Assembly (NCBI GenBank): GCA_003134435.1
Contig: PLBE01000112.1
Location: forward strand, 41,019-94,315
Reading direction: 5' to 3'
DNA: 53,297 nucleotides
DNA from: Acidobacteriaceae bacterium
GTDB taxonomy: Bacteria > Acidobacteriota > Terriglobia > Terriglobales > Acidobacteriaceae
This document shows positions 34,998 through 51,855 of the stretch, piece after piece. A model generated the notes under the pieces. It was not told the origin of the DNA. It was given only the letters and a program-made list of their open reading frames with translations, and ran no database searches. The first letter of the stretch is position 1. Each line of letters opens with the position of its first letter. The translations under genes were made by a program, and so were the position numbers.

Positions 34998-37900
34998 ATG
35001 GCATCGCACGCTGAGGATCATAATCACCATTACCAAGAGGAAACAACCGTCCTGTGGGATACGATCCGGCTGGCTCTCGAAGAAAACCAGGACTGGTATC
35101 GCGACCTGGTTGAGCACAGCCACATTCTCCTCTCCATTCACGACCTCGAAGGCCGCTTGCTCTCCGTGAACCCCGTTCCGGCCCGTCTGCTGGGTTACAG
35201 CGTCGAAGAGATGCTGCAAAGACCGCTGCGCGACTGTATCGATCCCCAGTTTCGCGGCGAGTTCGATGACTACCTGCGCGAGATCGCCCGCACCGGGGAG
35301 AGCCGGGGGTTGATGACAGTCGTAACCCGCGCCGGCGAGCGGCGAACCTGGGAATATCGAAGTTCCCTGCGCCGCGAAGGCGTGGCGAGGCCGATTGTGC
35401 GAACCATCGCCCACGACGTCACCGAGCGGGTGCGGGCAGAAAAAGCGCTCCGTCTGACGAACCAGGAGTTGCTGAAAGTGGCGCAGGAACGCGAGCGCAT
35501 GCTGGGCGACCTGACTCTTTTCCGCACCCTCCTCGACCAAACCCACGATGCCATCCAGGTAGTCGAGCCGGAAACCTTGCGTTTGCTCGACATGAACGAG
35601 AGAACTTGTCAGGAACTGGGCTACAGCCGCGAAGAACTGCTGTCCATGACCGTTTATGACATCGCCCCGGAATTCGACCAGAGAGTCCGCGCCGACGTGC
35701 TCCGGCAATTGCAAGAGCGAGGCTTCGCCATCATCGAAAGAGTCCATCGGCGAAAAGACGGTTCCACCTTCCCGGTGGAAGTGACCTTGCGCGAGGTCCA
35801 ACTCGACCGCAAGTACGGCGTGACCGTGACCCGCGATATCACCGCGCGCAAACGGGCCGAGCAGCAACTGCGGGAATACGAGCAAGTCGTGGAAGGGTTG
35901 GACGAACTGATCGTCGTAGTCGACCGGAACTACCGCTACCTGCTCGCCAATCGCGCCTTCCTGCTCTATCGCGGTCTGACAAAAGAACAGGTTGTGGGGC
36001 ATTCGGTCGCGGAAAATCTCGACCCCGGCACCTTCGACCATCTGATCAGGAAAAAAATGGACCAGTGTTTCGCGGGAAAAATCGTCCAGTACGAAATGAA
36101 ATACCGCTATCCCAATCTGGGCGAGAGAGACATCTTCGTCTCCTACTTTCCCATCGCCGCACCCGGCGGCGTCGATCGCATCGCTTGTGTCTTGCAAGAC
36201 ATCACCGGGCGCAAACAAAGTGAGGCCCGGCAGCAGGAATATGAAAGGGTGGTCGAAGGTCTGGAGGAAATGTACGTGGTCGTCGACCGCGATTACCGCT
36301 ACGTGCTGGCCAACCACGCGTACCTCCAGTATCGCGGCTTGCGCAGCGAACAGGTGGTCGGACGCCCCTTGTCGGAAGTGCTCGACAAGAATCTCTTCGC
36401 GACCCTCGTCAAGGACAAGATCGATGAGAGCTTTACGGGCAAAGTCGTCCGGTACCAGAAAACAGATAATTATCCGAATCTGGGCGAGAGGCATCTTTCC
36501 GTCTCGTACTTCCCCATCCAGGGCGCCCAGGGCGTCGATCGCATTGCCGTGATCCTCAAGGACATCACCGAACAAACCGCCGCCAAGAAAGCGCTACGGG
36601 AAAGTGAAGAGCGATTTCGCGCCGTCTACGAGCGCTCTCCGCTCGGCATTTCCCTGGTCGATTCCCTTACCGGCAAGTTTCTGCAAGTCAATCCGAAGTT
36701 CTGCGAAATCACCGGGCGCAGCCAGGAGGAACTACTGCGGAGCGACGTCAGAAGCATCACGCATCCTGACGATGTCGAACGCGACATCGAAAATCTGCAA
36801 CAACTGGCCGAGGAAAAGCTGGCCCATTACGAGATGGAAAAAAGATACCTCCGTCCGGATGGATCGGTGCGCTGGGTTCGGCTTCTGGTGACCCGGATGT
36901 GGACCCAGGGAGACCATCGCCGCTGGGAAATGGGCTTGATGGAGGACATCACCGAGCGCAAGCGTTCCGAGGAAGCCATCTCCACGCTGGTGCAGGTGCC
37001 GGCCAACAGCAGCGAAAATTTCTTTACTTCGATGGCGGTGCAACTCGCCAAGTGTCTGGCCGCCGACCACACGTATATTGGAGAACTCATCGCAGGCGAA
37101 AATGGCAAAGATGAAGATAGGGTGCGGACCCTGGGAGTCTGCAGTAAAGGCGAACTCGCCAACAACATTTTTTACGATCTGCCGAATAGTCCGTGCGCCG
37201 AGGTTCTGGAGCAGGGCACGTGCTCTTATGTTTCCGGCGTTGTCGCGCGGTTCCCGCGAGACTTCGTGCTGCAGCAGTTGCAGGTCGAGGGGTACGTTGG
37301 AACTTCTTTGCGCGATTCCCAAGGGCGTCTGGTTGGCATTATGGCCGCTGCGTACCAACGGCCGCTGGCCAACCCAAGATTCGCCGAGACGATCCTGCAG
37401 CTTTTCTCGACGCGAACCGCGGCCGAGATCGAGCGGAAACGCACCGAAGAGGCCCTGCGACAAAGCGAAGTCCGCTTCCAGGTGGCCATCAAGAATTCCC
37501 CGATTACCGTGTTTAGCCAGGACGTGAATTTGCGCTACACCTGGGTTTACAATCCAACCCTTTCGCACCCGTCGAGTGACATGATGGGCAAGGACCTGCA
37601 TGAGTTCTGGGGACGGGAGCAGGGGGACGCGATCGCGAAAGTCCGGCGCAGGGTGCTGGAAACCGGCGTTGGACTCCGGCATGAAGTCCAGGTCACTCAC
37701 GGCGGCAGGAACCACTACTTCGATACCACCATCGAACCGGTTTTTGACGCGGCCGGCGTGGTCGTCGGCCTCACCGGCGCCAGTATGGACGTGACCGAAC
37801 TCCGGGAAGCCACGGAAGCCTTGCGCGAGGCCCAGAAAAGGCTGCGGGAAGAAAAAGTCTATCTCGAGCGGGAAATCGATACCGAACTCGGATTCGGGGA

Positions 37901-38831
37901 GATCATTGGCCGGAGCAAGGCCCTGCAGGAGGTGATGGAGAATGTGGCGAAAGTCGCGGCTAGCGATGCCACCGTCCTCCTGCTCGGCGAAACCGGGACC
38001 GGGAAAGAATTGGTGGCGCGGGCAATCCACCGCTTGAGCCAGCGAGCGGACACCAGTTTTATCAAGATGAATTGCGCGGCGATTCCGTCCGGCCTGCTGG
38101 AAAGCGAGTTATTCGGAAATGAGAAAGGGGCGTTCACTGGCGCCGTCAGCAGGAAGATCGGACGCCTCGAACTGGCGGATAAGGGCACGCTCTTTCTCGA
38201 CGAGATCGGCGAGATTCCTCTGGACTTGCAACCCAAGCTCTTGCGCGTTTTGCAGGATCAGGAATTTGAACGCCTCGGTGGAATGCAGACCATCAAGGTC
38301 GACTTTCGCTTGATTGCCGCCACCAACCGCAACTTGGTCGCCGGAGTGCGTGAGAATGAGTTCCGCAGCGATTTGTATTACCGCCTGAACGTGTTTCCAA
38401 TCCGCGTGCCGCCCTTGCGCGAACGGCGGGAAGACATCCGGTTGCTCGTGGAGCATTTTGTACAGAAATTCGCGCGCCGGATGAAACGGTCCATCACCAG
38501 CATTCCTACCAGAACCATCGACGCGCTCATGGGGTGGGACTGGCCGGGAAATGTGCGCGAGTTGGAGAATTTCATCGAGCGCTCGGTGATTCTGACCCAA
38601 GGCTCGGTTCTGGTCTCGCCACTCAGCGAATTGGAACTGAATATTCCGATGGAGAAAAGAGCGGATGAAACTCTGAAGGCGGCCGAACGCCAGCTCATTC
38701 TGCGCGCTTTGCGGGAAAGCCACGGACAAATCGGCGGCCCGGACGGGGCCGCCCAACGGCTCGGATTGAAGCGGACTACCCTCCAGTCCAAACTCAAGCA
38801 CTTGGGAATTAATCCCCGGGCCGAACGTTAG
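34998..38831 (+). CDS. Sigma-54-dependent activator with six PAS domains and a GAF domain
   Basis: 1277 residues, with no receiver domain and no TM segment. Order: PAS 1 (about 25-140), PAS 2 (about 175-290), PAS 3 (292-405), PAS 4 (413-525), PAS 5 with PAC (about 535-650), GAF (about 657-814), PAS 6 (about 824-935), then the AAA+ domain (about 965-1200), and a Fis-type HTH ([19 protein letters not shown], about 1253-1273). AAA+ motifs: GETGTGKE near 996, the sigma-54-contacting GAFTGA near 1044, TLFLDEIGE near 1063, and an arginine-finger region [13 protein letters not shown]. It would open promoters held by RpoN in response to several small-ligand or redox cues; targets are not apparent. 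PAS 3 and PAS 4 are close copies. The AGGAG upstream region supports ATG 34998. Confidence 0.94.
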
Positions 38832-39395: not shown

Positions 39396-40106
39396 ATGAA
39401 CCGCGAATATCACAAACAATACAGCCACGAATTGGGGCGCGACATGGAGTCCCTGGTGTACGGGCATGCCGGACAGCCCATCCTGGTTTTTCCGACATCC
39501 ATGGGACGTTTTTTTGAGTATGAAGATTCGGGGATGATCCGGGCGCTGGGTGGAAAACTGGAAGCCGGAGCAATCCAGGTATTCTGCGTCGACGGCGTCG
39601 ACGGCGAGAGCTGGTATAACAAGGGCGTGCATCCGGGAGCGCGCATCTGGCGCCATGTCCAGTACGAGCGCTATGTACTCAACGAGTTTCTGCCGTTCTT
39701 GAAGTGGAAGAACTGGGCGCCGCGAATGGCCGTGACCGGATGCAGCTTTGGCGGCTATCATGCCCTCAATTTTTCCATGCGTCATCCAGATCTCGTTTTG
39801 GCTTGCGTAACCATGAGCGGATCGTTCGACATCAAGAGTTTCCTCGACGGCTATTACGACGACAATTGCTACTTCAATAATCCGCCCGACTACTTGCCTC
39901 GCATGAGCGATGAATGGTTTCTGAGCCGCTACCGCCAGATGAAAATTGTGCTGGGATCGTCGGACTGGGATATGTGTCTCGACGCAAATGTAAAAATGTC
40001 GGCGATCTTGCACGGCAAGGGGATTCCGCACTGGCTCGACATCTACGGAGACAACAGCAAGCACGATTGGCCGCTGTGGCAACGCATGGCGGAAAAATAT
40101 TTCTAG
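39396..40106 (+). CDS. Alpha/beta-hydrolase (COG4947-type esterase), first gene of the ligase cluster
   Basis: 236 residues, cytoplasmic (no signal). The nucleophile elbow is VTGCSFGG with Ser117. Asp190 or Asp192 (SSDWDMC) and His223 (NSKHDW) complete a plausible catalytic triad. The N-terminus (QYSHELGRDMESLVYGH) and FPTSMGRFFEYED are typical of the COG4947 esterase group. Start: ATG at 39396, with no Shine-Dalgarno sequence but TACAAT at 39380-39385, so the message may be near-leaderless. 38 bp separates it from the ATP-grasp gene, and all five downstream genes share its direction. It may hydrolyse an ester, thioester or amide in a pathway with the ligases. A 9-bp repeat encodes a duplicated Val-Asp-Gly near residue 66. 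Confidence 0.85.
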   Translation: MNREYHKQYSHELGRDMESLVYGHAGQPILVFPTSMGRFFEYEDSGMIRALGGKLEAGAIQVFCVDGVDGESWYNKGVHPGARIWRHVQYERYVLNEFLPFLKWKNWAPRMAVTGCSFGGYHALNFSMRHPDLVLACVTMSGSFDIKSFLDGYYDDNCYFNNPPDYLPRMSDEWFLSRYRQMKIVLGSSDWDMCLDANVKMSAILHGKGIPHWLDIYGDNSKHDWPLWQRMAEKYF

Positions 40107-40144
40107 CCGCGCTGATAGCGTTTTTCACCCACAAGGAGTCGCTT

Positions 40145-41125
40145 ATGAGCACCAAGAAGATCGGAATTCTTTTCGGGATGGAGAATACCTTTCCGCCCGC
40201 TTTGGTCGAGAAAATCAACTCTCTGCAAGCCGGTGTCACTGCCGAATTTGTGAAAATCGGCGGCATCCGCATGGATGAGCCCAAAAAGTACGACGTCATC
40301 GTCGATCGGATTTCCCAGGACATCCCTTTCTACCGCGCCTATTTAAAGAACGCCGCCCTGCAGGGAACGATCGTGATCAATAATCCGTTCTGGTGGACGG
40401 CGGACGATAAGTTTTTTAACTATGCCCTGGCGCACAAAATGGGCGTCGCGATCCCGCCCACCGTGATTTTGCCGCATCACGAGCATCCGCCCGATACCTC
40501 CGATAAGTCCATGCGGAATCTGATGTATCCGCTCAACTGGGAAGAATTGTTTGCCTATGTCGGGTTCCCGGCGTTCCTCAAGCCCTATGCCGGCGGAGGC
40601 TGGAAGCATGTCTACAAAGTGCATTCTCCGGAGGAGTTTTTCCACCACTACAACCAGACCGGCGACCTCTGCATGACCCTCCAGCATGGCGTTGAGTTTG
40701 AAGATTATTACCGCTGCTACGTCGTCGGGCAAGAAAAAGTGCACATCATGAAGTACGATCCCAAGGCTCCGCATCACGAGCGCTACGTGAAAGGGAATCC
40801 CCAGCCGTCGACCGCATTAAAGGCGCGAATCGAAAAAGACGCGCTGGCCTTGCGTCGCGCTCTTGGCTACGACCTGAACACGGTGGAGTTCGCTGTCGAA
40901 GATGGCGTTCCCTATGCCATTGATTTCATGAATCCCGCCCCTGACGCCGAGGTTACCTCCGTGGGCCAGCAGAATTTCGAATGGGTGGTCGACGCCGTGG
41001 CGCGGATGGCGGTCAAAAAAGCGCTGAGCGGAGAGAATCCGGTCGAGGAATTGCGCTGGGCGGCGTTCTTGAACGGTCCGAAACTGGCGGAGACCGGGAC
41101 TGTGGGCGTGCGCAAAAAAGCATAA
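40145..41125 (+). CDS. ATP-grasp carboxylate-amine ligase-like protein
   Basis: 326 residues. The N-terminal preATP-grasp fold begins KKIGILFGMENTFPPALVEKIN. Nucleotide-binding features follow: the Lys and Gly-rich loop in FPAFLKPYAGGGWKHVYKV (near residue 145), the hinge acid region MTLQHGVEFEDYYRCYVVG, and the metal-binding segment TVEFAVEDGVPYAIDFMNPAPD near 255, with Glu, Asp and Asn in the usual order. ATP-grasp enzymes join a carboxylate to an amine or thiol through an acyl-phosphate. Substrate unknown. AAGGAG lies just before ATG 40145. It is the second gene of the cluster and lies 110 bp upstream of the YbdK-like ligase gene. Confidence 0.85.
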   Translation: MSTKKIGILFGMENTFPPALVEKINSLQAGVTAEFVKIGGIRMDEPKKYDVIVDRISQDIPFYRAYLKNAALQGTIVINNPFWWTADDKFFNYALAHKMGVAIPPTVILPHHEHPPDTSDKSMRNLMYPLNWEELFAYVGFPAFLKPYAGGGWKHVYKVHSPEEFFHHYNQTGDLCMTLQHGVEFEDYYRCYVVGQEKVHIMKYDPKAPHHERYVKGNPQPSTALKARIEKDALALRRALGYDLNTVEFAVEDGVPYAIDFMNPAPDAEVTSVGQQNFEWVVDAVARMAVKKALSGENPVEELRWAAFLNGPKLAETGTVGVRKKA

Positions 41126-41235
41126 GCTCCCGATTCCGCCAACGCGCACAAACCGCCCCCACACGGGTATCTCATTGGTATACTAATTGAACTTCTGCCG
41201 GGGTACTTCGCTCCCTGGCAGCCTGGGATGCCACG

Positions 41236-42375
41236 ATGAGGCCTACATTCACGCTCGGAATCGAAGAGGAGTATCAGACGGTCGACCCCGACACTCGGGA
41301 TCTCCGGTCACATATCCACGCCGAGATCATCGAGAAGGGCAAATTGATCCTGCAGGAACGGGTCAAGACCGAGATGCACCAATCGGTGGTCGAAGTTGGA
41401 ACTTCGGTTTGCGCCAACATCAAAGAAGCGCGCGAAGAACTGAAAAGTCTGCGCAGCCACATCATCCGCCTGGCGCGGGAGAATGGCCTCCGGTTGGCTT
41501 CCGCCGCGACCCATCCCTTTGCCGACTGGCGCGTCCAGGAAGTTACCCCCGGTGAACGCTACAAGAATATTGTCCAGGACATGCAACTGGTGGCCCGCGC
41601 CAACCTGATTTTCGGACTGCACGTCCACGTTGGCATCGAGGATCGTGAAGTTTTGATCCATATGATGAATCACGCGCGGTATTTTATTCCGCATCTGCTC
41701 GCGCTCTCGGCAAACTCACCATTCTGGCTCGGGATGGACACCGGCTTGCACTCCTACCGCTGCAAGGTTTTCGACAAATTCCCGCGCACCAACCTGCCCG
41801 ACTATTTTCCCAGCTGGGGCGAGTACGAAAACTACGTCAAGCTCCTGGTCAAAACAAATTCCATCGACAACGCCAAGAAGATCTGGTGGGATATGCGGCC
41901 CCATCCTTTCTTCAACACCCTCGAATTCCGGGTGTGCGATCTGCCGATGCGCCTCGATGAGACCATCGCCCTGGCCGCCCTGATCCAGGCGACGGTCGCC
42001 AAACTTTACAAGCTGTACAGCCAGAACCAGGGTTTTCGGATGTATCGCAAGTCGCTCCTGATGGAAAATAAGTGGCGGGCCGCGCGTTACGGCATCAACG
42101 GGAAACTCATCGACTTCGGCAAGCAGACCGAAGTTCCCGAGGGCGAACTGATCGAAGAGTATCTGGAATTCGTCGACGACGTGCTCGATGAACTGGATTG
42201 CCGGAAGGAAGTGGAGTACATCCGCGAGATTATGAAGATGGGCACCGGCGCGGACCGTCAACTGGCCGTGTACCGTAAGACGGGCGACATGAAAGCGGTA
42301 GTGGATTACATCATTAAGGAGACTGAGGTGGGCGTGGATGAGGTGGAGAGTTTGCCCACCGCCAAGGCCGGCTGA
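41236..42375 (+). CDS. Carboxylate-amine ligase, YbdK / GCS2 family
   Basis: 379 residues, normal for this family. It begins FTLGIEEEYQTVDPDT, the hallmark of glutamate-cysteine ligase family 2. Other conserved segments are QSVVEVGTSVCANIKEAREEL, AATHPFADW, FGLHVHVGIEDRE (His/His), LSANSPFWLG, TGLHSYRCKVFDKFPRTNLP and WWDMRPHPFFNTLEFRVCDLP. E. coli YbdK has weak gamma-glutamylcysteine synthetase activity; the true substrate of most homologs is unknown. The ATG at 41236 begins the conserved region. TATACT at 41179-41184 is a possible -10 of an internal promoter with a poor -35. Its stop overlaps the next ATG by one base (TGATG), so it is coupled to the M29 gene. Confidence 0.93.
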   Translation: MRPTFTLGIEEEYQTVDPDTRDLRSHIHAEIIEKGKLILQERVKTEMHQSVVEVGTSVCANIKEAREELKSLRSHIIRLARENGLRLASAATHPFADWRVQEVTPGERYKNIVQDMQLVARANLIFGLHVHVGIEDREVLIHMMNHARYFIPHLLALSANSPFWLGMDTGLHSYRCKVFDKFPRTNLPDYFPSWGEYENYVKLLVKTNSIDNAKKIWWDMRPHPFFNTLEFRVCDLPMRLDETIALAALIQATVAKLYKLYSQNQGFRMYRKSLLMENKWRAARYGINGKLIDFGKQTEVPEGELIEEYLEFVDDVLDELDCRKEVEYIREIMKMGTGADRQLAVYRKTGDMKAVVDYIIKETEVGVDEVESLPTAKAG

Positions 42376-43439
42376 TGAGTTTGATGACGACTTCTACGAA
42401 TCCAACGGCACCAACCAACCGACAATTGAACCAACTGCCTTTTGATCCGGAACTGACGCCGGGGGCGCGCAATGCGGTGCGCGTGTGCCTGCGCGTGCTG
42501 CCTTCGGAAAAGGTCACGGTCATCACCGATGCGGTGAGCCTCGAGATCGCGGCGGCCATCGTGCACGAACTGGAAGAACTGGGCTGCCGCTATCACACTT
42601 GGGTGCTCGAAGACGTGGCCCAGCGTCCGCTGACGGATTTGCCGCTCGCCATCGCCGACGATCTCGAATCGAGCCAGGTCAGCATTTTTGCGGTGCAGGC
42701 CCAGACTAATGAACTGAAATCACGCATGCAGATGACCGATGTCGTAAACCGGAAGAAAATCCGCCACGCCCACATGGTCAACATCAACAAGCGCATCATG
42801 CTCGAAGGCATGCGCGCCGATTTCCAGAAGGTCGACCGCTTGAGCCTGAAAGTGCTCGACATCGTGCGCAACGCGAAGCAGGTTCGCGCCACGACTCCTG
42901 CTGGAACCGACCTGGTGGCGAATTTGAATCCCAACTATCGCTGGGTAAAAACCAGCGGAATTATCAGCACCGAAAAGTGGGGAAACTTGCCCGGCGGTGA
43001 AGTCTTCACCAGCCCCGGAGAGGTGAACGGCACTTTTGTGATCGATGGCGTGGTGGGCGATTATTTGTGCGCGAAGTTCGGCGCTCTGAAGGCCAATCCG
43101 CTGACTATTCAGGTGAAGGGAAACCGCCTCATCGAAGCGCACTCCGCGAACCGCGAATTGAAGGACGACTTCTGGGCCTACACCCATACCGACGAGAACA
43201 GCAACCGCGTTGGCGAATTTGCCATTGGAACGAATATCGAACTCAAAGACGTGATCGGCGAAATTCTGCAGGACGAGAAATATCCCGGCGTCCACATCGC
43301 CTTCGGAAATCCCTATGGCGCCCACACCGGGGCAGAATGGTATTCGGCAACCCACATCGATGTAGTCGGACGGAACTTCGATATCTGGGTTGATGGCGTG
43401 CAGATCATGCGGAGCGGGCAGTTTTTGATTGAGGCGTAA
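42375..43439 (+). CDS. M29-type metallopeptidase / NicX-fold protein
   Basis: 354 residues, shorter than the usual M29 aminopeptidase (about 410). Metal-ligand segments are present in order: GGEVFTSP (Glu near residue 210), RVGEFAIGTN (Glu near 280), HIAFGNPYG (His near 306) and ATHIDVV (His-Asp near 326-328). The N-terminal half is a Rossmann-like domain (SEKVTVITDAVSLEIAAAIVHEL). M29 enzymes remove N-terminal residues from peptides. The ring-cleaving dioxygenase NicX shares this fold and size, so peptidase activity is not certain. It starts one base inside the stop of the YbdK-like ligase gene, so translation is coupled. Within the cluster it may trim or recycle the amide product (inference). 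Confidence 0.82.
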   Translation: MSLMTTSTNPTAPTNRQLNQLPFDPELTPGARNAVRVCLRVLPSEKVTVITDAVSLEIAAAIVHELEELGCRYHTWVLEDVAQRPLTDLPLAIADDLESSQVSIFAVQAQTNELKSRMQMTDVVNRKKIRHAHMVNINKRIMLEGMRADFQKVDRLSLKVLDIVRNAKQVRATTPAGTDLVANLNPNYRWVKTSGIISTEKWGNLPGGEVFTSPGEVNGTFVIDGVVGDYLCAKFGALKANPLTIQVKGNRLIEAHSANRELKDDFWAYTHTDENSNRVGEFAIGTNIELKDVIGEILQDEKYPGVHIAFGNPYGAHTGAEWYSATHIDVVGRNFDIWVDGVQIMRSGQFLIEA

Positions 43440-43511
43440 AGGCAGCGGTTGGCTCATGTCACGGTTGCCTGCTCTCGCCCGCAGCCGTGGTGCCGTCGCT
43501 CCAGGATTGCC

Positions 43512-44708
43512 ATGATTCCCTCTTATCGGCACGATTTCAACGCGCGCTTTACTCCCGAAAAGTACGACCGCCTGCGCCATGAGACGGCTTTGCGCTGCGG
43601 TATGGAGATTCCGTTCGCGGTCTGCGAGACGCCTTGCTTCCTGCCCAACTCGCTCGTCAACCGCATGGGCGAGGATGGCAAGGTGCTGATCCGGCAGTTG
43701 CTGGAAAATCGGGAATATCTCGCCCGATCCGAGGCTTCGATTCCGTCCCAGTTTCGGGTGCCGAATGAATCGGCGCATCCCATGTTTATCCAGGTCGATT
43801 TCGGACTCGTACGGAATTCAGTCGGCGAACTGCAGCCCAAACTGGTCGAGTTACAAGCCTTCCCTTCCCTCTACGCATTTCAGGCTGTCTTGTCTCAGGC
43901 CTACATCGATGCCTTCCAACTCGATCCCCAGCTTCGTTACTTTCTAAGCGGGATTAACTCGACCTCTTATCAGCGCCTCTTGCGAGACGCAATCGTGGCG
44001 GGCCACGATCCAGCCAACGTCGTGTTGATGGAGGTTTTTCCCGAACAGCAGAAAACCCAGCCCGATTTTACCGCGACCGGCAAACTGCTCGGCATTCCAA
44101 CCGTATGCATTACCAGGATTCGCAAGCAGGGACGGCATCTGTTCTACGAAGAAGGCGGCACTCAAATTCCGATTCGGCGCATTTACAACCGCACCATCGT
44201 CGATGAACTGGAGCGCAAGGGCGTGGCTTTGCCCTTTGATTTTCGCGATGACCTCGACGTGGAGTGGGCCGGCCATCCCAACTGGTATTTTCGGATGAGC
44301 AAGTATTCGATCCCGTATCTGCACCATCCATCGGTGCCCCGGACCTGGTTCCTGGATCAATTGCCGGAAGTGCCCGCCGACTTGGAAAACTTTGTCCTCA
44401 AGCCGCTCTATTCCTTTGCCGGCCTGGGAGTCCTCGTCGCTCCAAAACGCGCCGACATCGACGCCATTCCCCCCGCCAAACGCGGCGCCTACATCCTGCA
44501 GGAGCGTATGAATTTTGCGCCAGTCGTGGAGACGCCTCACGGACCAACGAAGGTCGAGATGCGGATCATGTACGTCTGGCTCGATCAACTGCTCCCCGTG
44601 CTGACCATCGCCCGTATGGGTCGCGGCCTGCTGATGAACGTCGATCACAATAAAAATATGGCGTGGGTCGGATCGTCAGCGGCCCTGATAAGCGATGCAA
44701 AGCCGTGA
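43512..44708 (+). CDS. Divergent ATP-grasp-like protein, last gene of the ligase cluster
   Basis: 398 residues. Not a family I can name. The C-terminal third resembles the ATP-grasp nucleotide site: the Lys and small-residue loop in FVLKPLYSFAGLGVLVAP (near residue 296), AYILQERMNFAPVVETP, a strand with two acids (TKVEMRIMYVW), and TIARMGRGLLMNVDHNKNMAW near the end. Parts recall glutathionylspermidine-synthase or permuted ATP-grasp folds. The N-terminal half has CETPCFLPNSLVNRMG and PKLVELQAFPSLYAFQ, both of unknown meaning. Start: ATG 43512, chosen because upstream codons lack conservation-like character; the Shine-Dalgarno sequence is weak. It lies 72 bp behind the M29 gene. It may be a second ligase acting on the first ligases' product, but this is inference. 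Confidence 0.7.
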   Translation: MIPSYRHDFNARFTPEKYDRLRHETALRCGMEIPFAVCETPCFLPNSLVNRMGEDGKVLIRQLLENREYLARSEASIPSQFRVPNESAHPMFIQVDFGLVRNSVGELQPKLVELQAFPSLYAFQAVLSQAYIDAFQLDPQLRYFLSGINSTSYQRLLRDAIVAGHDPANVVLMEVFPEQQKTQPDFTATGKLLGIPTVCITRIRKQGRHLFYEEGGTQIPIRRIYNRTIVDELERKGVALPFDFRDDLDVEWAGHPNWYFRMSKYSIPYLHHPSVPRTWFLDQLPEVPADLENFVLKPLYSFAGLGVLVAPKRADIDAIPPAKRGAYILQERMNFAPVVETPHGPTKVEMRIMYVWLDQLLPVLTIARMGRGLLMNVDHNKNMAWVGSSAALISDAKP

Positions 44709-44893: not shown

Positions 44894-47317
44894 ATGGAGA
44901 TCGTTGGACAGACTGTCTCCCACTACCGCGTGCTCTCGAAGTTGGGCGTCGGCGGGATGGGAGTCGTTTACGAGGCGGAGGATCTGCACCTCGGCCGCCA
45001 TGTTGCCCTGAAATTTATTCCCGATCATCTCGTGAAAGATCGGCGCTCCCTTGATCGGTTCACGCGCGAGGCCCGGGCCGCCTCCCAACTCAACCACCCC
45101 AACATCTGCACCATCCACGCAATCGAAGACAACGACGGGCACCCCTTCATCGTCATGGAGAAACTGGAGGGCGAGAGCCTCAAGCAGCGGATCCATGGCA
45201 AAGCCCTCGACCTTGAAGACCTGTTGGAAATTGCGGTCCAGGTCGCCGACGCGCTCGCCGCCTCTCATGCCAAGGGGATTGTCCACCGCGATATCAAGCC
45301 CGCCAATATCTTCCTGACTCCGAACGGCCAGGTGAAGATTCTGGACTTTGGCTTGGCCAAACTGGCCAAAGATGGGAGCCTGGGCACGTCCACCGACTCG
45401 TCGCTGGAGGAATCGCTCACTCAGGTGGGAGTGATTCCAGGTACGGCCGTGTATATGTCGCCCGAGCAGGCGCGGTCGGAGGATCTCGATGTCCGCAGCG
45501 ACATATTTTCCTTCGGCGTAGTGTTGTTTGAAATGGCGACCGGCAAAAAGCCATTCACCGGAACCAACGTGGTCACCACTTTACATGCGGTCATCAATTC
45601 GAAGCCGGCATCGCCCCGGTCGATCAATCCGGAGGTCCCGGCGCAACTCGAAGCCATCATCGCCAAGGCCATGGAGAAAGACCGCGACAAACGCTACAAG
45701 AACGCGACCGAACTCAAGGCGGACCTGGCGCGGTTGCAGAAAGGAACGGAACCCGCCTTGCGCAGTGCGCTTCGTCATGCCAGTGGATTGCACGTCGTGA
45801 CGAACACATTCCAGAAGCCGAACTCGAAGGTGAACTGGATCTTGCTTGCGCTCACCGCCGTGCTGCTGGCGCTCGTCGCCGCGCTCGGGGTTTGGTGGCT
45901 CAAGCAACGTTCCACAACCATACCGGCGGAGATCCGGACAATCGCCGTGCTGCCCCTGCAAAACGTTGAAAATGATCCGCACGTCGACTATCTCAGGGTG
46001 GCCCTGGCCGACGAGATCGCCAATACCCTGACCTCGGCTCACTCTTTGGAAGTCCGCCCTTCGGCAACAACCGAGAAATACGCCCAACCCGGAGCCGAAG
46101 CCGACCCGGTCAAAGCTGGCAGAGAGTTAGGCGTAAACACGGTGGTGACAGGACACTTCGTCCAGCAGAACAAGATGGTGATGGTGACGCTGGAAGCGGT
46201 CGACGTGAAACAGAACAAGGTCATCTGGGGACACACCTTCGAGCCGCGAACCGATAACCTGCTTGTCCTGCAAAACCAGATGACGAAGCAGGTGCGCCAG
46301 GAACTGCTGCCATTGTTGGGCGCGGCGACCGGCCCGGTCGAAAGCGGCAGAGCTACTGAGAATCGCGAGGCGTACGACGCATTTCTGCGAACCAAAGCAA
46401 TGAAGAGCGATGGTCCCGAAAATAAGGACGCTATCGTCACCCTGGAGCGGGTAGTGAGACTGGATCCAAATTACGCGCAGGCATGGGAAGCGCTCGGACA
46501 GCGTTATTACTACGATGCCGCCTATTCGACCGGAGGGACGGCCGGATATCAGCGCTCGACCGAGGCGTACCGGCGAGCCCTTGCCCTCGAACCGGGACGC
46601 GTGAGCGCCGCCGGACTGCTCGCCGCGAACGAAGTCGAGGCTGGAAAACTGGACAAGGCTTACGAGGACGCGGCCGCTCTGGTGAAGAAGCGTCCGGATA
46701 AAGCATATGCGCATTTTTCGCTCGGGTATGTACTGCGCTATGCCGGGCGCTTGAATGAAGCGCAAAGCCAATGCGATCAGGCGTTGGCGCTCGACCCCGC
46801 CAATCACACTTGGCGCTCCTGCGCTTTCGCCTTTTTTGAGCAGGGGAAGACCGCCCGCGCCGTCGATTACATAAGACTTGATCCCGGATCGGAGTGGTCG
46901 AACGCTACCCTGGTCTGGGTTCTGATGCGGCAGGGGAAGATGGCCGAAGCGCGGGAGGCGGCGCAGCGGATCACTCCCGATGCGATGTGGATGGGGGACT
47001 TGGTCAAGGCTTGCCTGAACAACATGCCGCAGACTGAGATTCACCGCTTGGCCGAACTGGCGGAAAATCGATTGTTGCCCGCTCAAGATCCCGAAACCAA
47101 GTACTCCCAGGGGACGGTGCTGGCGGCATGCGGCGAAAAAGAAATTGCCTTCACCTTTCTGCGCCGCGCCGTAGCGGAGAATTATTGTGCGCACCAGGCT
47201 TTACTGTCCGATCCGCTCCTGGCGGGCGTTCGCGAGGATGCCGAGTTCCGCCAGATTGTGCAGGCAGCCGCGGCGTGCCAACAGAAATTTGCGGCTGCAC
47301 AAGGCATGACCCCATGA
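44894..47317 (+). CDS. Membrane serine/threonine protein kinase with TolB/FlgO-like and TPR extracytoplasmic domain
   Basis: 807 residues. Hanks-type kinase domain about 10-280: KLGVGGMGVVYEAED, VALKFIPDH (Lys), HRDIKPANIF near 130, DFGLAKLA near 150, PGTAVYMSPEQARSEDLD, and DIFSFGVVLFEMATG. A TM segment lies at about 313-335 (WILLALTAVLLALVAALGVWW). Outside the membrane are a TolB/FlgO-like domain (IRTIAVLPLQNVEND, LGVNTVVTGHF) at about 346-480, then TPR-like repeats to the end. The extracytoplasmic half has the same layout as the CadC-like regulator at 17832-20315. It likely relays an envelope signal by phosphorylating cytoplasmic targets; targets are not known. ATG 44894 begins the kinase. 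It is separated from the ligase cluster by its own promoter. Confidence 0.93.
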   Translation: MEIVGQTVSHYRVLSKLGVGGMGVVYEAEDLHLGRHVALKFIPDHLVKDRRSLDRFTREARAASQLNHPNICTIHAIEDNDGHPFIVMEKLEGESLKQRIHGKALDLEDLLEIAVQVADALAASHAKGIVHRDIKPANIFLTPNGQVKILDFGLAKLAKDGSLGTSTDSSLEESLTQVGVIPGTAVYMSPEQARSEDLDVRSDIFSFGVVLFEMATGKKPFTGTNVVTTLHAVINSKPASPRSINPEVPAQLEAIIAKAMEKDRDKRYKNATELKADLARLQKGTEPALRSALRHASGLHVVTNTFQKPNSKVNWILLALTAVLLALVAALGVWWLKQRSTTIPAEIRTIAVLPLQNVENDPHVDYLRVALADEIANTLTSAHSLEVRPSATTEKYAQPGAEADPVKAGRELGVNTVVTGHFVQQNKMVMVTLEAVDVKQNKVIWGHTFEPRTDNLLVLQNQMTKQVRQELLPLLGAATGPVESGRATENREAYDAFLRTKAMKSDGPENKDAIVTLERVVRLDPNYAQAWEALGQRYYYDAAYSTGGTAGYQRSTEAYRRALALEPGRVSAAGLLAANEVEAGKLDKAYEDAAALVKKRPDKAYAHFSLGYVLRYAGRLNEAQSQCDQALALDPANHTWRSCAFAFFEQGKTARAVDYIRLDPGSEWSNATLVWVLMRQGKMAEAREAAQRITPDAMWMGDLVKACLNNMPQTEIHRLAELAENRLLPAQDPETKYSQGTVLAACGEKEIAFTFLRRAVAENYCAHQALLSDPLLAGVREDAEFRQIVQAAAACQQKFAAAQGMTP

Positions 47318-47369
47318 CCATTCAAGAATCGCAATAAATTTGCTCCTTTCTTTGAGGAAAATCCATCAC

Positions 47370-50246
47370 ATGCTCATGTTCGCGATGCTGAATCGGTTCC
47401 GGGGCGGATGGGTGCGGTTCAAAATTACCGCTGCCACGCTCCTTCTGCTGCTGGCGACTCCGCCGGCGATTGTCGCCGCGCCCCAGAAGGCAGAAAAGCC
47501 TGCGAGCCCTGCTGGCCCTGCGAGAGTCGACCGTGCCAGCGATCACGCCGGCGATCACTACTATGAGCCGCTGTCGCAGGAGACAGGAACGTCTGGGTTA
47601 AAGCTGATGCTGCGACGCCTGCAGACCACGGCGCGCCTGATGCAGACGACCGCCCACCCCGACGACGAAGATGGCGGCATGCTGACGCTGGAAGCCCGCG
47701 GAAAAGGCGTCTCGACTTTGCTTATGACTCTGACGCGCGGCGAAGGTGGACAGAATAAACTGGGCAGCAACCTGTTTGATGTGCTCGGCGTGCTGCGCAC
47801 CTTGGAGTTGCTGGCCTCGGATCGTTATTACGGCGTCGAGCAGCGCTTCTCGCGCGTGGCTGATTTTGGATACTCGAAAGTCCCCGAAGAAACTTTTCAA
47901 AAGTGGCAAGGGCACGATGTCGCCCTGTCCGACATGGTGCGGGTCATTCGGACCTTTCGTCCGGATGTGCTCGTAGCTCGCTTCTCAGGCACCGATCGCG
48001 ATGGTCATGGACATCACCAGGCCTCGGCAATATTAACCAAAGAGGCCTTCCACGCGGCCGCGGACCCCAATCGGTTTCCCGAGCAAATCGCGGAGGGCCT
48101 CGAACCATGGCAGCCCAGGAAACTATATATCGGCAACGTGTGCGGCTTCGGCGCCATGACCTGCGATGCCGCGAACTACACCCTCCGGTTGAACACCGGA
48201 GTGGTCGATCCGGTGTTGGGAGTGTCGTACATACAGTTCGCCATGCAGGGACTGCGGCATCAGCAGTCGCAGGGTGCAGCCAACTGGACCGTCGACCCCG
48301 GAGACCGCTTCACCTATTACAAGCTCGTTGATTCGGTGTTGGAATCTCCGCCGGCAAAAGACAAAGACGGGCACGAACAAAGTTTCTTCGATGGCCTCGA
48401 CGAGACGCTGCCGGGATTGGCTTCGCGATTAGGGGCTGAAGAAAAGAAGGCGCCGTGGCTGCGGCGCGAACTGGAATCGATTGCAGCCGACATAAAACGC
48501 GCCGCCGACAGCGATGCGTCCAATCCCAGTAGCGCCGCCGCCCCGCTCTCGCAGGCGGCGCAAACTCTCGAATCGGTAACCGCCCGATTCGAATCCAGCG
48601 GAATTGCCAACGGTCCGAAAGAAAGCTTGCTGGCCATTCTCCGTGAAAAACATCGGGAGGCCCAGGCCGCCGTCGGCCTCGCGTTAGATCTGTCGTTGCA
48701 GGCCACGGCCGTTGCGCTGGCTGATCCCAGAAAAACCGTGCCCCGGCTTGAAGACGCACTCACCGTGGTTTCTCCCGGCCAGAGGTTCCAGATAATCGCC
48801 AGGCTGCATAATGGATCGAAGTTCTCGCTCCTCGTAAACCATGCGGATGTGGACCAGCCCGGGGACTGGGTCAAGCAGGCCGACGCCGGTGAAATGACGA
48901 TTGCTCCCGGGCAAACTTACTATGCAAATTTTGCCCTAAAGGTCCCTGTCGACGCCCTGGCAACTCGCCCCTTTTGGCATCGCGACAGCCCTGAAACCGA
49001 GGCGCTCAACACCATCGATGAACAGAAATACCAGACTCTGCCACTGCCGCCACCGCCCTTGCGGGTCAATCTCCGGTATGAGATTGTGGAACGCACCGGA
49101 AAACATTTGCCTTTGCCAGATGCAATCACGGACCGCGGCTCCAACCATGCCGCCCTCATGCAAGAGATCTCCGCCCCCGTTGTAGTTCCGTTCGCGGACG
49201 AAAAAGACGAGACTCGCCAGACTTCTCTCTCCGTCGCTCCTGAATTCTCCCTGAAACTGGAACCCAACGAACAGGTTCTGCCCGCTGCCGACGTAAGAGA
49301 AATAAGCGTCAAAGTCGCCGTGAGTTCCAATCTCACCGGTGCCCCGGGCGGAATTCTGCGACTCAAACTTCCGGATGGGTGGAGATCCCAGCCTGCACAA
49401 TTGCCGGTCAACCTGTCCCAACGAGGAGCGAAGCAGGATTTCGACTTCAAGATTCTCCCTTCCAGCCTCAAGCAAGAACGCGCCCAGGTACGCGCCGTCC
49501 TTGACGCCGGAGGACGCGAGTATAGCGAAGGCTATACCCTGGTTACGCGCGAGGATCTGGGCGCTGCCTATTATTACCAGCCGGCCCTGCAACGCGTCAG
49601 CATCGTCGATGTGAAGATCCCGAAAAATCTGAAGGTCGGCTACATCATGGGTGCCGGCGATGACATTCCCACCGTGCTGCGGCAGATCGGCGTGGATGTA
49701 ACGCTGATTCCGGCCGAAAAGCTGAGCGCGGAAGATCTGAGCCGCTATCAGACGATTGTCCTCGGGATTCGCGCCTACGACACTCAGAAAGACTTAGTCG
49801 CCAACAACCAGCGGTTGCTCGCTTTTGTGCAGGCCGGCGGCCGTCTGGTCGTACAATATAGCGCCGCGCCGGCCGATTTCAATGCCGGCAAGTTTACTCC
49901 CTATCCGGCAACACTTGGCCGGGCTCGAGTCTCAGTCGAGGAAGCTCCCATTGCCATTCTCGATCCCGCCAACCCCGTTTTCCATCTTCCCAACGAAATT
50001 ACGCAGCAGGATTTCGCGGGCTGGGTACAGGAGCGAGGCCTCTACTTCATGTCGCAATGGGACTCGAACTATACACCGCTGCTGCAATCGCATGATCCAG
50101 GCGAAGACGAACAGAAAGGCGGACTCCTGCTGGCGCATTATGGCAAGGGGACCTATATCTATACCGGGTATGCCTTCTTCCGGCAGTTGCCGGCGGGCGT
50201 GCCCGGAGCCGTGCGGTTGTTTGTGAACTTGCTTAATCAAGAGTAA
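47370..50246 (+). CDS. Exported PIG-L (LmbE) deacetylase-family protein with C-terminal GATase-like domain
   Basis: About 958 residues from ATG 47370 (GAGGAAA lies about 11 bases upstream; an upstream TTG at 47340 would extend the frame). A signal sequence (ITAATLLLLLATPPAIVAAP) lies at about 20-40. PIG-L domain about 90-270: the metal motif AHPDDEDGGM near 94, then GTDRDGHGHHQAS near 212 supplying His ligands. A long beta-rich middle follows. The last 200 residues look like a class-I GATase/ThuA fold (LKVGYIMGAGDDIPTVLRQIGVDVTLI, LLAFVQAGGRLVVQYSA). PIG-L enzymes deacetylate GlcNAc-type substrates; this combined, exported form is seen in several environmental phyla. It follows the kinase gene by 52 bp on the same strand. 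Confidence 0.87.
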   Translation: MLMFAMLNRFRGGWVRFKITAATLLLLLATPPAIVAAPQKAEKPASPAGPARVDRASDHAGDHYYEPLSQETGTSGLKLMLRRLQTTARLMQTTAHPDDEDGGMLTLEARGKGVSTLLMTLTRGEGGQNKLGSNLFDVLGVLRTLELLASDRYYGVEQRFSRVADFGYSKVPEETFQKWQGHDVALSDMVRVIRTFRPDVLVARFSGTDRDGHGHHQASAILTKEAFHAAADPNRFPEQIAEGLEPWQPRKLYIGNVCGFGAMTCDAANYTLRLNTGVVDPVLGVSYIQFAMQGLRHQQSQGAANWTVDPGDRFTYYKLVDSVLESPPAKDKDGHEQSFFDGLDETLPGLASRLGAEEKKAPWLRRELESIAADIKRAADSDASNPSSAAAPLSQAAQTLESVTARFESSGIANGPKESLLAILREKHREAQAAVGLALDLSLQATAVALADPRKTVPRLEDALTVVSPGQRFQIIARLHNGSKFSLLVNHADVDQPGDWVKQADAGEMTIAPGQTYYANFALKVPVDALATRPFWHRDSPETEALNTIDEQKYQTLPLPPPPLRVNLRYEIVERTGKHLPLPDAITDRGSNHAALMQEISAPVVVPFADEKDETRQTSLSVAPEFSLKLEPNEQVLPAADVREISVKVAVSSNLTGAPGGILRLKLPDGWRSQPAQLPVNLSQRGAKQDFDFKILPSSLKQERAQVRAVLDAGGREYSEGYTLVTREDLGAAYYYQPALQRVSIVDVKIPKNLKVGYIMGAGDDIPTVLRQIGVDVTLIPAEKLSAEDLSRYQTIVLGIRAYDTQKDLVANNQRLLAFVQAGGRLVVQYSAAPADFNAGKFTPYPATLGRARVSVEEAPIAILDPANPVFHLPNEITQQDFAGWVQERGLYFMSQWDSNYTPLLQSHDPGEDEQKGGLLLAHYGKGTYIYTGYAFFRQLPAGVPGAVRLFVNLLNQE

Positions 50247-50361: not shown

Positions 50362-51855
50362 ATGTCACCCATGCAAACCGCCAAAAAGTCCGGGCACACC
50401 GTATCTGACAGATCTCACCTCGTCCGCGGCATCGGCCTCGCCTCCGCCACTGCGCTGAACATGATTGACATGATCGGCGTTGGACCCTTTATCACCATCC
50501 CGCTCATCGTCTCCGTCATGGGCGGTCCGCAGGCTATGTTGGGATGGGTGCTGGGCGCGCTGCTCGCCGTCTGCGATGGCCTGGTATGGGCCGAACTCGG
50601 CGCGGCAATGCCCGGCTCGGGTGGCTCCTATCGGTATTTGAAAGAAATCTACGGACCGCAAAAACTCGGCCGCGCCGTTTCTTTTCTCTTCATCTGGCAA
50701 CTCTCGTTCAGCGCTCCTCTTTCGATTGCTTCCGGAGCGGTGGGTCTCTCGCAGTACGCTTCTTTTTTCTGGCCAGGATTGGAGCGGGTTTGGGCTTCGC
50801 GCACCTTGAGTTTGCCTTTGCCCCTGCTCGGGCAACTGCAAGTCACCTGGGTAGCCATGCCCGCGACTCTGCTGGCCATCGGCGTCTGCCTGTTCGCCGC
50901 GTTTCTGCTGTACCGCCGCATCACGGCGATTTCAAGATTGTCGACTCTGCTTTGGCTCGGCGTCATGGGCACGATCGGCTGGATCATCTTCGCCGGCCTC
51001 ACTCACTTCAATGCCCGGCAGGCTTTTGATTTTCCGCCCGCCGCATTCTCGCTCTCCCCGAGCTTCTTCCATGGACTGGGCGGAGCCATGCTCATTGCGG
51101 CCTATGACTATTGGGGCTACTACAACGTCTGCTTCCTGGGAGACGAAATCAAAAACCCAGGGAAAAATATTCCGCGCGCCCTGCTGCTATCCATTCTCGC
51201 CGTGGCTTGTATCTATGTAGTAATGAACATCAGTATTCTCGGCGTGGTTCCATGGCGCGAACTGGCCCAGTCCTCGGCGGCCAACAGCAAACTCTACGTG
51301 GTTTCCATCTTCATGCAGAGAACCTACGGGCATGGTGCGGCGCAAATCGTCTCCGCTCTGGTGATGTGGACGGCGTTCGCTTCCGTCTTTTCCCTGATGC
51401 TGGGCTATTCGCGTGTGCCCTATGCCGCCGCGGCCGACGGCAACTATTTCCCCGCCTTCGCCCGCGTCCATCCCGTCCATCAGATCCCCTACGTATCGTT
51501 GCTGGCCCTGGCGGGCGTGGCGGCGCTGTTTTGCTTTCTGCGGCTGGCGGACCTGATTGCCGCCCTGGTCGTCATCCGCATCATTCTGCAATTCCTCGTC
51601 CAGGCGATTGGCGTAATTGTGCTGCGTATCAGGCGTCCGGAAATGAAGCGCCCGTTTCGAATGTGGCTCTATCCCCTGCCCGCGCTGGTGGCGGCCGGCA
51701 GTTTCGTCTTTATTCTGATTTCCCGTACCGGATTCTTGCGCGAGATACGCTACGCCGCGGTGATCCTGATGCTGGGAATTGCAGTGTATTGTGCCCGCGC
51801 GTGGCGAAGACGCGAGTGGCCGTTTGGGAATGGGCCGACGCCCGTTAGCAGTTAG
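50362..51855 (+). CDS. APC-family amino-acid permease
   Basis: 497 residues with about twelve TM segments. TM1 carries the unwound helix motif of APC transporters (GIGLASATALNMIDMIGVGPFITIP). Also visible are the TM2-3 segment MLGWVLGALLAVCDGLVWAELGAAMPGSGGSYRYL and the TM6 helix FFHGLGGAMLIAAYDYWGYYN. It imports an amino acid or polyamine by proton or exchange coupling; substrate unknown. The 115-bp leader (50247-50361) contains repeated gttcgct words. No Shine-Dalgarno sequence is clear at ATG 50362; ATG 50371 (Met-Gln-Thr) is an alternative. It is convergent with homoserine kinase. Confidence 0.92.
   Translation: MSPMQTAKKSGHTVSDRSHLVRGIGLASATALNMIDMIGVGPFITIPLIVSVMGGPQAMLGWVLGALLAVCDGLVWAELGAAMPGSGGSYRYLKEIYGPQKLGRAVSFLFIWQLSFSAPLSIASGAVGLSQYASFFWPGLERVWASRTLSLPLPLLGQLQVTWVAMPATLLAIGVCLFAAFLLYRRITAISRLSTLLWLGVMGTIGWIIFAGLTHFNARQAFDFPPAAFSLSPSFFHGLGGAMLIAAYDYWGYYNVCFLGDEIKNPGKNIPRALLLSILAVACIYVVMNISILGVVPWRELAQSSAANSKLYVVSIFMQRTYGHGAAQIVSALVMWTAFASVFSLMLGYSRVPYAAAADGNYFPAFARVHPVHQIPYVSLLALAGVAALFCFLRLADLIAALVVIRIILQFLVQAIGVIVLRIRRPEMKRPFRMWLYPLPALVAAGSFVFILISRTGFLREIRYAAVILMLGIAVYCARAWRRREWPFGNGPTPVSS

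Follow-up and report, generated by a model that had tools for sequence, protein, structure and literature searches.

A 53,297-nucleotide stretch of DNA from an Acidobacteriaceae bacterium (contig PLBE01000112.1 of assembly GCA_003134435.1), referred to here at its full length as the window, carries a run of five genes, g1 to g5, that encode a putative esterase, an ATP-grasp ligase, a carboxylate-amine ligase, a metallopeptidase and a second ATP-grasp enzyme (Table 1). The source genome comprises 5.75 Mb in 261 contigs, and the named records nearest to g5 are Acidobacteriaceae metagenome-assembled genomes (MAGs), with identities from 83% downward. An earlier note on this DNA, made from the sequence alone, had proposed that the five genes build, trim and release a peptide-like or gamma-glutamyl-like compound. 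The plus-strand frames that it described, with gaps of 38, 110, -1 and 72 bp and a TGATG-coupled g3/g4 junction, were all found as claimed, and its family labels were borne out by Pfam for g1, g3 and g4 and by predicted fold for the ATP-grasp enzymes g2 and g5.

Table 1 Coordinates in the window of the five cluster genes and of flanking genes
Feature	Position	Strand	Length	Description
g1	39396-40106	+	236 aa	cytoplasmic-looking alpha/beta-hydrolase ("esterase")
g2	40145-41125	+	326 aa	predicted ATP-grasp ligase, family without a Pfam model
g3	41236-42375	+	379 aa	GCS2/YbdK-type carboxylate-amine ligase
g4	42375-43439	+	354 aa	M29-type metallopeptidase; start overlaps g3 stop (TGATG)
g5	43512-44708	+	398 aa	predicted ATP-grasp, glutathione-synthetase / glutathionylspermidine-synthetase / YgiC fold; not in any curated family
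upstream flank	34998-38831	+	1277 aa	PAS-repeat sigma-54 activator, immediately upstream of cluster
downstream flank	44894-47317	+		Ser/Thr kinase with TPR
downstream flank	47340-50246	+		PIG-L deacetylase-like protein
downstream flank	50362-51855	+		amino-acid permease

Families and predicted folds of the five proteins

Three of the proteins fall into curated families. The g1 protein matches PF00756 (E 1.7e-6) and PF00561 (E 3.7e-6), both above the cut-off, and Ser117, Asp192 and His223, which from the family motif would form its catalytic triad, are kept in 55, 58 and 56 of 59 homologs, respectively. For g4, the match to the M29 family PF02073 (55.6 bits, cut-off 27) spans the C-terminal half only (model positions 203-369 of 406), and a profile search reached AmpS (1zjc) at E 5.1e-7. 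All 42 homologs have E209, E281, H307, H327 and D329, which we take to be metal ligands; of these, the Glu positions and that of the first His align with AmpS, and the H-x-D aligns with the Fe enzyme 7cn3. The g3 protein matches PF04107 (E 7.3e-68, 229.5 bits against a cut-off of 21), with a further match to the NCBIfam carboxylate-amine ligase NF010039 (560.6 bits, cut-off 371) and to the YbdK-group structures 1tt4 (E 2.3e-52) and 1r8g (E 1.4e-51). Its motif G8-x-E10-x-E12 occurs in all 79 rows with letters at those positions (81 rows in total), and GxExE is given as the metal/ATP motif of the GCS2 family in PMC2588565. In an Ignavibacteriae MAG, g3 lies in two open frames (L066:7177-8313; loci and genomes are cited by our L and G numbers), reflecting a frameshift or an assembly error.

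The two remaining proteins were identified by predicted fold, using AlphaFold models built from alignments of 21 sequences for g2 and 33 for g5. No Pfam family matched g2 at E ≤ 0.01, and with the RimK family TIGR00768 it scored 27.5 bits, under the cut-off of 143.4. Its model (predicted local distance difference test, pLDDT, 81) was matched by Foldseek to 560 chains at E ≤ 0.001, the best 50 of the 560 being ATP-grasp enzymes, with D-Ala-D-Ala ligase (Ddl, E 7.4e-14) and ArgX (E 2.4e-13) at the top and LysX and RimK also among the matches; K146, Q180, E248, D260 and N263 are present in 97 of 97 homologs. On the evidence of the model, g2 is an ATP-grasp enzyme of the Ddl/ArgX/RimK type that stands outside the curated RimK family. 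In three Bacteroidota loci (L075:6532-7950, L076:6428-7954 and L077:4346-5713) g2 extends into a long C-terminal basic tail of KKRGRKPK/RGRPAKPK type, AT-hook-like by eye, which is followed by a conserved "FG(D/E)LIGL(E/D)AVLAAEKMMG" segment.

Neither Pfam nor NCBIfam gave a family for g5 at E ≤ 0.01, and the best matches to PDB sequences, at E 0.95 with the single sequence and E 0.74 with a 35-row profile, were not to the group that its structure resembles. The g5 model (pLDDT 92.2, predicted TM-score 0.91) matched 24 PDB chains at E ≤ 0.001, all from the glutathione synthetase (GSS) and glutathionylspermidine synthetase (GspS) group: human, yeast and plant GSS or homoglutathione synthetase, GspS, trypanothione synthetase (TryS), YgiC/YjfC, nematode GSS-like effectors and the fungal ligase Cp1B. 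Four residues (E113, Q115, W252 and P256) are invariant in 94 of 94 rows, and five more (K297, G304, G306, E349 and R351) in all 92 rows with letters there. The model thus identifies g5 as a probable ATP-grasp ligase of glutathione-synthetase type, and the ATP-grasp folds of g2 and g5 together with g3 give the cluster three predicted ATP-dependent carboxylate-amine ligases.

The protein targets of some g2 relatives raise an alternative to a small-molecule product, in which g2 and its partners would add residues to a cellular, possibly nucleic-acid-bound, protein and the hydrolase of the cluster, M29 or its GATase counterpart described below, would remove them. RimK and ArgX/LysX, to whose fold that of g2 is close, act on proteins, and the KKRGRKPK-type tails of the g2 proteins of L075-L077 are in keeping with such a role, as is the origin of PafA, the protein-tagging ligase of pupylation, from the GCS2 fold (PMC2588565). 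The window's g2, however, has no long basic tail, and Cp1B and homoglutathione synthetase, which share the g5 fold, are small-molecule ligases according to PMC12568646. A tag gene was likewise not seen. Of 3604 open reading frames (ORFs) of 20-130 aa lying beside the cluster at 82 loci, the recurring families were inspected down to the 12th largest (4-11 loci each), and all 12 were confined to Acidobacteriota relatives, so that a ribosomal precursor or tag is unsupported. We consider protein tailing unlikely, and a RiPP (ribosomally synthesized and post-translationally modified peptide) or graspetide precursor, or a peptide tag, was rejected on the families inspected.

Conservation and distribution of the cluster

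Profiles of g1 to g5, of the GATase, of a circularly permuted ATP-grasp protein and of est2, an enterochelin-esterase-like enzyme, were mapped on 142 loci, including the window, near copies and 40 Bacteroidota g2 loci. L079, a copy of L045, was excluded, while L029 and L030, identical in g2 and g3, were both counted; the Bacteroidota neighbourhoods are 40 of 86 strong g2 matches, picked down the score list, and lean to close relatives. In all 64 loci that hold both g3 and g5 the two genes lie on the same strand, which upheld the claim of the earlier note that the clustering is beyond chance. Among measurable pairs, a set that left out those with the second gene upstream of the first or with a frame running off the stretch, g2 and g3 share a strand in 75 of 75 and g1 and g2 in 55 of 59. 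Gaps are short at the g3-g4, g3-GATase and GATase-g5 junctions; 22 of 39 g3-g4 pairs (-8 to +3 bp) and 12 of 20 GATase-g5 pairs could overlap or abut, both upper counts because the script favoured overlapping starts. All five genes are present in 26 non-Bacteroidota loci besides the window, three of which also carry est2, and g1 and g5 are missing from some g2+g3 loci. The 40 Bacteroidota g2 stretches hold g3 in 25, g5 in 24, g1 in 26, the GATase in 21 and M29 in none. The scattering of homologs that would have told against the earlier note was not seen, order and strand being retained across Acidobacteriota and Bacteroidota sensu lato, and g2 is the most constant member of the set. Where g2 lies outside the cluster in six loci (L177, L231, L233, L234, L236 and L239), it is flanked by an aromatic amino acid lyase (PF00221) and a calcineurin-like phosphoesterase, as assigned by Pfam on L177.

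Co-occurrence was counted in an evenly drawn sample of 199 Acidobacteriota genomes, with strong matches defined by cut-offs chosen after viewing the lists (g5 E < 1e-80, g2 E < 1e-70, g3 E < 1e-120, g4 E < 1e-75). At E ≤ 0.001, g5 was present in 24 genomes (23 strong), g2 in 67 (53 strong), g3 in 64 (57 strong) and g4 in 49 (15 strong). The 23 genomes with strong g5, from which the weak match in G132 is excluded, include 22 with strong g2, 20 with strong g3 and 13 with strong g4; for g2, the 22/23 compares with 53/199 overall (Fisher 9e-14, a value overstated by the relatedness of the genomes). In 247 Bacteroidota genomes, a classification that counts the Chlorobi-labelled G202 among them, g5 was found in 73 and strong g2 in 86, with 70 shared (Fisher 9e-42, likewise overstated), at cut-offs of E < 1e-60 for g2 and E ≤ 1e-10 for g5 that were also chosen after viewing the lists. 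The counts are a better guide than the Fisher values because the genomes are related and not independent.

Scanning GTDB contigs for g5 returned 52 loci, in Acidobacteriota, KSB1, Ignavibacteria/Chlorobi-labelled, Kapabacteria and Bacteroidota records, and in KSB1 the cluster genes are present but split. Whole-genome searches of 18 of these g5-containing genomes found g2 in 16, in one case split in two. The g5 stretch itself bears no g2 in 13 of the 18, and 11 of these 13 carry it elsewhere.

These distributions bear on whether the genes are merely unrelated neighbours, brought together by chance or by synteny within a family. Among Terriglobales relatives the flanks of the cluster are syntenic too, with ORF clusters of 32 loci for the kinase (paralogs mixed in), 24 for PIG-L and 20 for the permease; the clustering also gave shadow ORFs, such as one opposite g1, and was retained for flank counts only. 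Because of this synteny, distant phyla are the comparison that counts: the core alone persists in L062, L066 and L075-L077, and the PIG-L and permease flanks were not seen at these loci or at L083, L085, L086 and L092, all of which retain the core. The g2+g3 and g2+g5 pairings of the Bacteroidota stretches and the co-occurrence of unlinked g2, g3 and g5 copies argue in the same direction. Chance neighbourhood was accordingly rejected on cross-phylum conservation and on the co-occurrence of unlinked copies, and we give it a very slight probability.

Exchange of the hydrolase and of a ligase

The earlier note had stressed the presence of two ATP-dependent ligase folds next to a hydrolase and a peptidase. 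The ligase part of that description stood and was extended to three ligases by the GSS-type fold of g5, whereas the M29 peptidase proved not to be obligatory. In the Bacteroidota loci L075-L077, a protein resembling class-I glutamine amidotransferases (GATases) fills the M29 slot between g3 and g5. Membership of PF00117 is above the cut-off for L077 (E 2.5e-7) and L212 (E 1.6e-7), the L075 and L076 proteins being assigned by similarity, and the Cys-His-Glu triad is present in 27 of 27 copies. A profile built from 24 Bacteroidota GATases alone picks up three related Acidobacteriota proteins (E 1.5e-14 to 2.8e-11), encoded in the g3+g5 loci L083, L093 and L095; the L083 protein, which has no Pfam match, was assigned through a tblastn search in which the L077 protein served as query (E 4e-10) and through that profile (E 1.9e-13).

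Across the 64 g3+g5 loci, 34 carry M29 (many of them close relatives), 21 the GATase, nine neither and none both, and two of the nine are in genomes with a GATase elsewhere (L088 in G191 and L098 in G119). The same pattern holds genome-wide for the 23 Acidobacteriota with strong g5, where M29 is found in 13, the GATase in eight, neither in two (G055 and G074) and both in none; this lack of overlap has a chance of 9e-5 if related genomes are treated as independent. At E ≤ 1e-20 the GATase occurs in 11 of the 199 Acidobacteriota genomes, all 11 with g2, although three of them (G107, G067 and G042) match by construction, their copies being included in the query profile. A g3+g2 tree could include 58 of the 64 loci, namely the ones that have g2; on it the three hydrolase states need seven changes, and G107 (GATase) and G167 (M29), which belong to one genus, are sisters. 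The M29 slot is thus exchangeable between M29 and a class-I GATase-like enzyme, the two never having been seen together, and the simplest reading of the exchange is that both enzymes would cut an amide.

A class-I GATase with a full triad beside ATP-grasp enzymes could also feed ammonia to a ligase, which would make the product an amidated peptide osmolyte or siderophore-like compound and place the hydrolases in salvage. N-acetylglutaminylglutamine amide (NAGGN) is a model for such an osmolyte, and est2, of family PF00756, is encoded divergently beside many of the loci. An M29 enzyme, by its family chemistry, is however not a supplier of ammonia, so that an ammonia-donor role for the GATase that replaces it is the less simple reading, and no acetyltransferase was among the annotated recurring neighbours, which are only part of the neighbours. 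We regard an amidated product of this kind as improbable.

A second exchange involves a ligase. At loci L131-L136 the gene between g2 and g3 encodes a member of the circularly permuted ATP-grasp family, for which the L131 protein was tested (PF04174 above the cut-off, PF14403 just under), and the genomes concerned show no g5 match. Four of the 40 Bacteroidota stretches (L226 and L243-L245) carry this protein as well, in genomes in which no g5 was found. Two circularly permuted ATP-grasp genes stand beside a TPR-thioredoxin/AhpC-TSA protein at L141:2507-4618, adjacent to g2, and at L148:7378-9492, adjacent to g3 (Pfam on L141).

The hydrolases could conversely be the primary enzymes of a catabolic or scavenging module, with the ligases merely re-activating breakdown products, as the amino-acid permease downstream of 20 Acidobacteriota loci (including the window and one duplicate) might suggest. 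Three ligases are nevertheless set against one hydrolase, and the ligases persist in the nine g3+g5 loci with neither M29 nor GATase on the stretch, though G119 and G191 carry a GATase elsewhere. This makes a primarily degradative role quite improbable in our estimation.

A putative pathway for an amide-linked metabolite

We lean, with somewhat more confidence than doubt, to the reading that the cluster represents one case of a widely distributed modular pathway by which a small amide-linked metabolite is synthesised and turned over within the cell. In such a pathway g3 would act first and, in keeping with the GCS2/YbdK family, most likely produce a gamma-glutamyl amide, after which g2 and g5 would phosphorylate a carboxylate and attach a second and a third amine or amino acid, g5 acting on a gamma-glutamyl substrate in the manner of glutathione synthetase or glutathionylspermidine synthetase. 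The hydrolase, M29 or GATase, would then strip a residue, plausibly the gamma-glutamyl group, in maturation or recycling of the product, and the esterase g1 would cleave an ester or activated acyl group on the substrate or product. Such a step could explain the M29-GATase exchange, because such a residue could be removed either by an N-terminal metallo-aminopeptidase or by a gamma-glutamyl-hydrolase-like GATase. What the data show are the families, folds, conserved residues and co-inheritance described above; the substrates, the order of the ligases and the product are conjectures built on them. The building, trimming and release of a peptide-like or gamma-glutamyl-like compound likewise stays a conjecture; the retained catalytic-type residues fit a working pathway. 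More tentatively, and as a possibility to which we commit less, the product may be a new glutathione- or glutathionylspermidine-like metabolite, that is a gamma-glutamyl peptide or peptide-amine conjugate, made with three ligases and widespread in Acidobacteriota and Bacteroidota, with M29 and GATase interchangeable and the GSS-type and circularly permuted ATP-grasp enzymes partly so.

Several observations weigh against a single linked pathway of this form. Strong g3 occurs without strong g2 in 14 of 57 Acidobacteriota genomes, g5 is distant from g2 or g3 in several genomes (for example G094, G103, G139, G155 and G163), and g2 stands without any other mapped family in nine of the 40 Bacteroidota stretches. 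At L083 the GATase is located outside the g3-g5 interval, some 2.5 kb from g1, and in five of the eight GATase genomes (G005, G098, G119, G176 and G191) the GATase and g5 are on different contigs, so that the pairing there rests on presence and not on linkage. L226 and L243-L245 show the order g2, circularly permuted ATP-grasp, GATase, with no g3 or g5 on the stretch (g3 was not searched elsewhere); in such variants without g3 nearby the first step may differ between lineages, and a gamma-glutamyl bond may not come first everywhere. Exclusion between g5 and the circularly permuted enzyme is not strict either, the two being found together in the L063 genome (G203, locus L172) and in G005. The likeness of g5 to the GSS group is structural only, at 10-17% identity and a TM-score by query length of 0.44-0.60. 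Lastly, Ser117 of g1 is lost in four of 59 homologs (L207, L209, L211 and L215), three of which also lack His223. All four belong to the nine g3+g5 loci in which both M29 and the GATase are missing, a hint that the hydrolases may have been lost together; but they fall within one small clade of the tree, and the residues are intact in L098 and L218, two more of the nine loci in which g1 is present. Thioredoxin-like and dihydroorotate-dehydrogenase-like genes lie upstream in the four loci (Pfam on L207).

The combination of a GCS2-type ligase (g3) with an ATP-grasp enzyme of eukaryote-type GSS fold (g5) recalls glutathione and homoglutathione synthesis, to which the cluster adds a second, distinct ATP-grasp enzyme (g2), an esterase and a hydrolase, with g5 sharing only the low identity given above with its matched structures. 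Canonical glutathione synthesis was ruled out for the window genome, which has no match to GSH-S_ATP (PF02955; 0 of 1, against matches in nine of 14 control genomes, eight above the cut-off). BshC is present in that genome (E 4.6e-81), and with PF02955 absent bacillithiol is its likely thiol, in agreement with the prediction in PMC6282198 that Acidobacteria and Bacteroidetes make bacillithiol. Anti-phage defence was rejected as a role as well, the five proteins, one GATase and one circularly permuted ATP-grasp protein having no PADLOC match at E ≤ 0.001. GspS, trypanothione synthetase and E. coli YgiC/YjfC, the last reportedly peptide-spermidine ligases according to a reference title, share the fold of g5 (3n6x, 7uk8, 7uk6, 2vpm and 2io7; E 1.6e-13 to 1.0e-11), but g5 lacks a fused amidase domain and a family match at E ≤ 0.01, and stands beside a GCS2 enzyme and a second ATP-grasp. 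In the case of g2, the fold and ATP-grasp-type residues are shared with ArgX/LysX, RimK and D-Ala-D-Ala ligase, while the score is under the RimK cut-off and the five genes include no LysW-like or ribosomal-protein gene. The fungal E-64 ligase Cp1B (9cjn) is likewise a GSS-like ATP-grasp enzyme, and within its small cluster it ligates amides on its own; besides Cp1B the pathway has an oxygenase and Cp1D, which also forms amides, and the available portion of PMC12568646 mentions no GCS2, M29 or GATase enzyme.

A search of open-licence PMC literature by ligase and family names found no paper on this gene set. Judging by its title, the 2009 work of Iyer, Abhiman, Burroughs and Aravind reportedly deals with ATP-grasp and glutamine-synthetase-like amidoligases and novel metabolites, and the amidoligase systems predicted there may include part of this neighbourhood. 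We know of no product of these g2 or g5 ligases. With the core ligase g2 in about a third of the Bacteroidota (86/247) and a quarter of the Acidobacteriota (53/199) sampled, the proposed pathway, if true, would mean that biochemistry has so far overlooked a metabolite common inside the cells of major soil phyla. The replacement of M29 by GATase would in that case be a direct clue to the bond being cut, and a testable function would be given to a branch of GSS-fold ligases and to YbdK-like GCS2 enzymes.

Scanning gave 6 promoter-like sites where 2.6 were expected (standard deviation 1.7) and 10 terminator-like sites where 6.9 were expected (standard deviation 3.0). The PAS-repeat sigma-54 activator upstream of g1, whose ORF cluster comprises seven loci including the window, could be a regulator of the neighbourhood. 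Elsewhere in the window's family, a PilZ-domain protein and a LuxR-type response regulator, identified by Pfam on one member each, adjoin g5 in L081, L082, L084, L085, L089 and L097, and g2 in L113.

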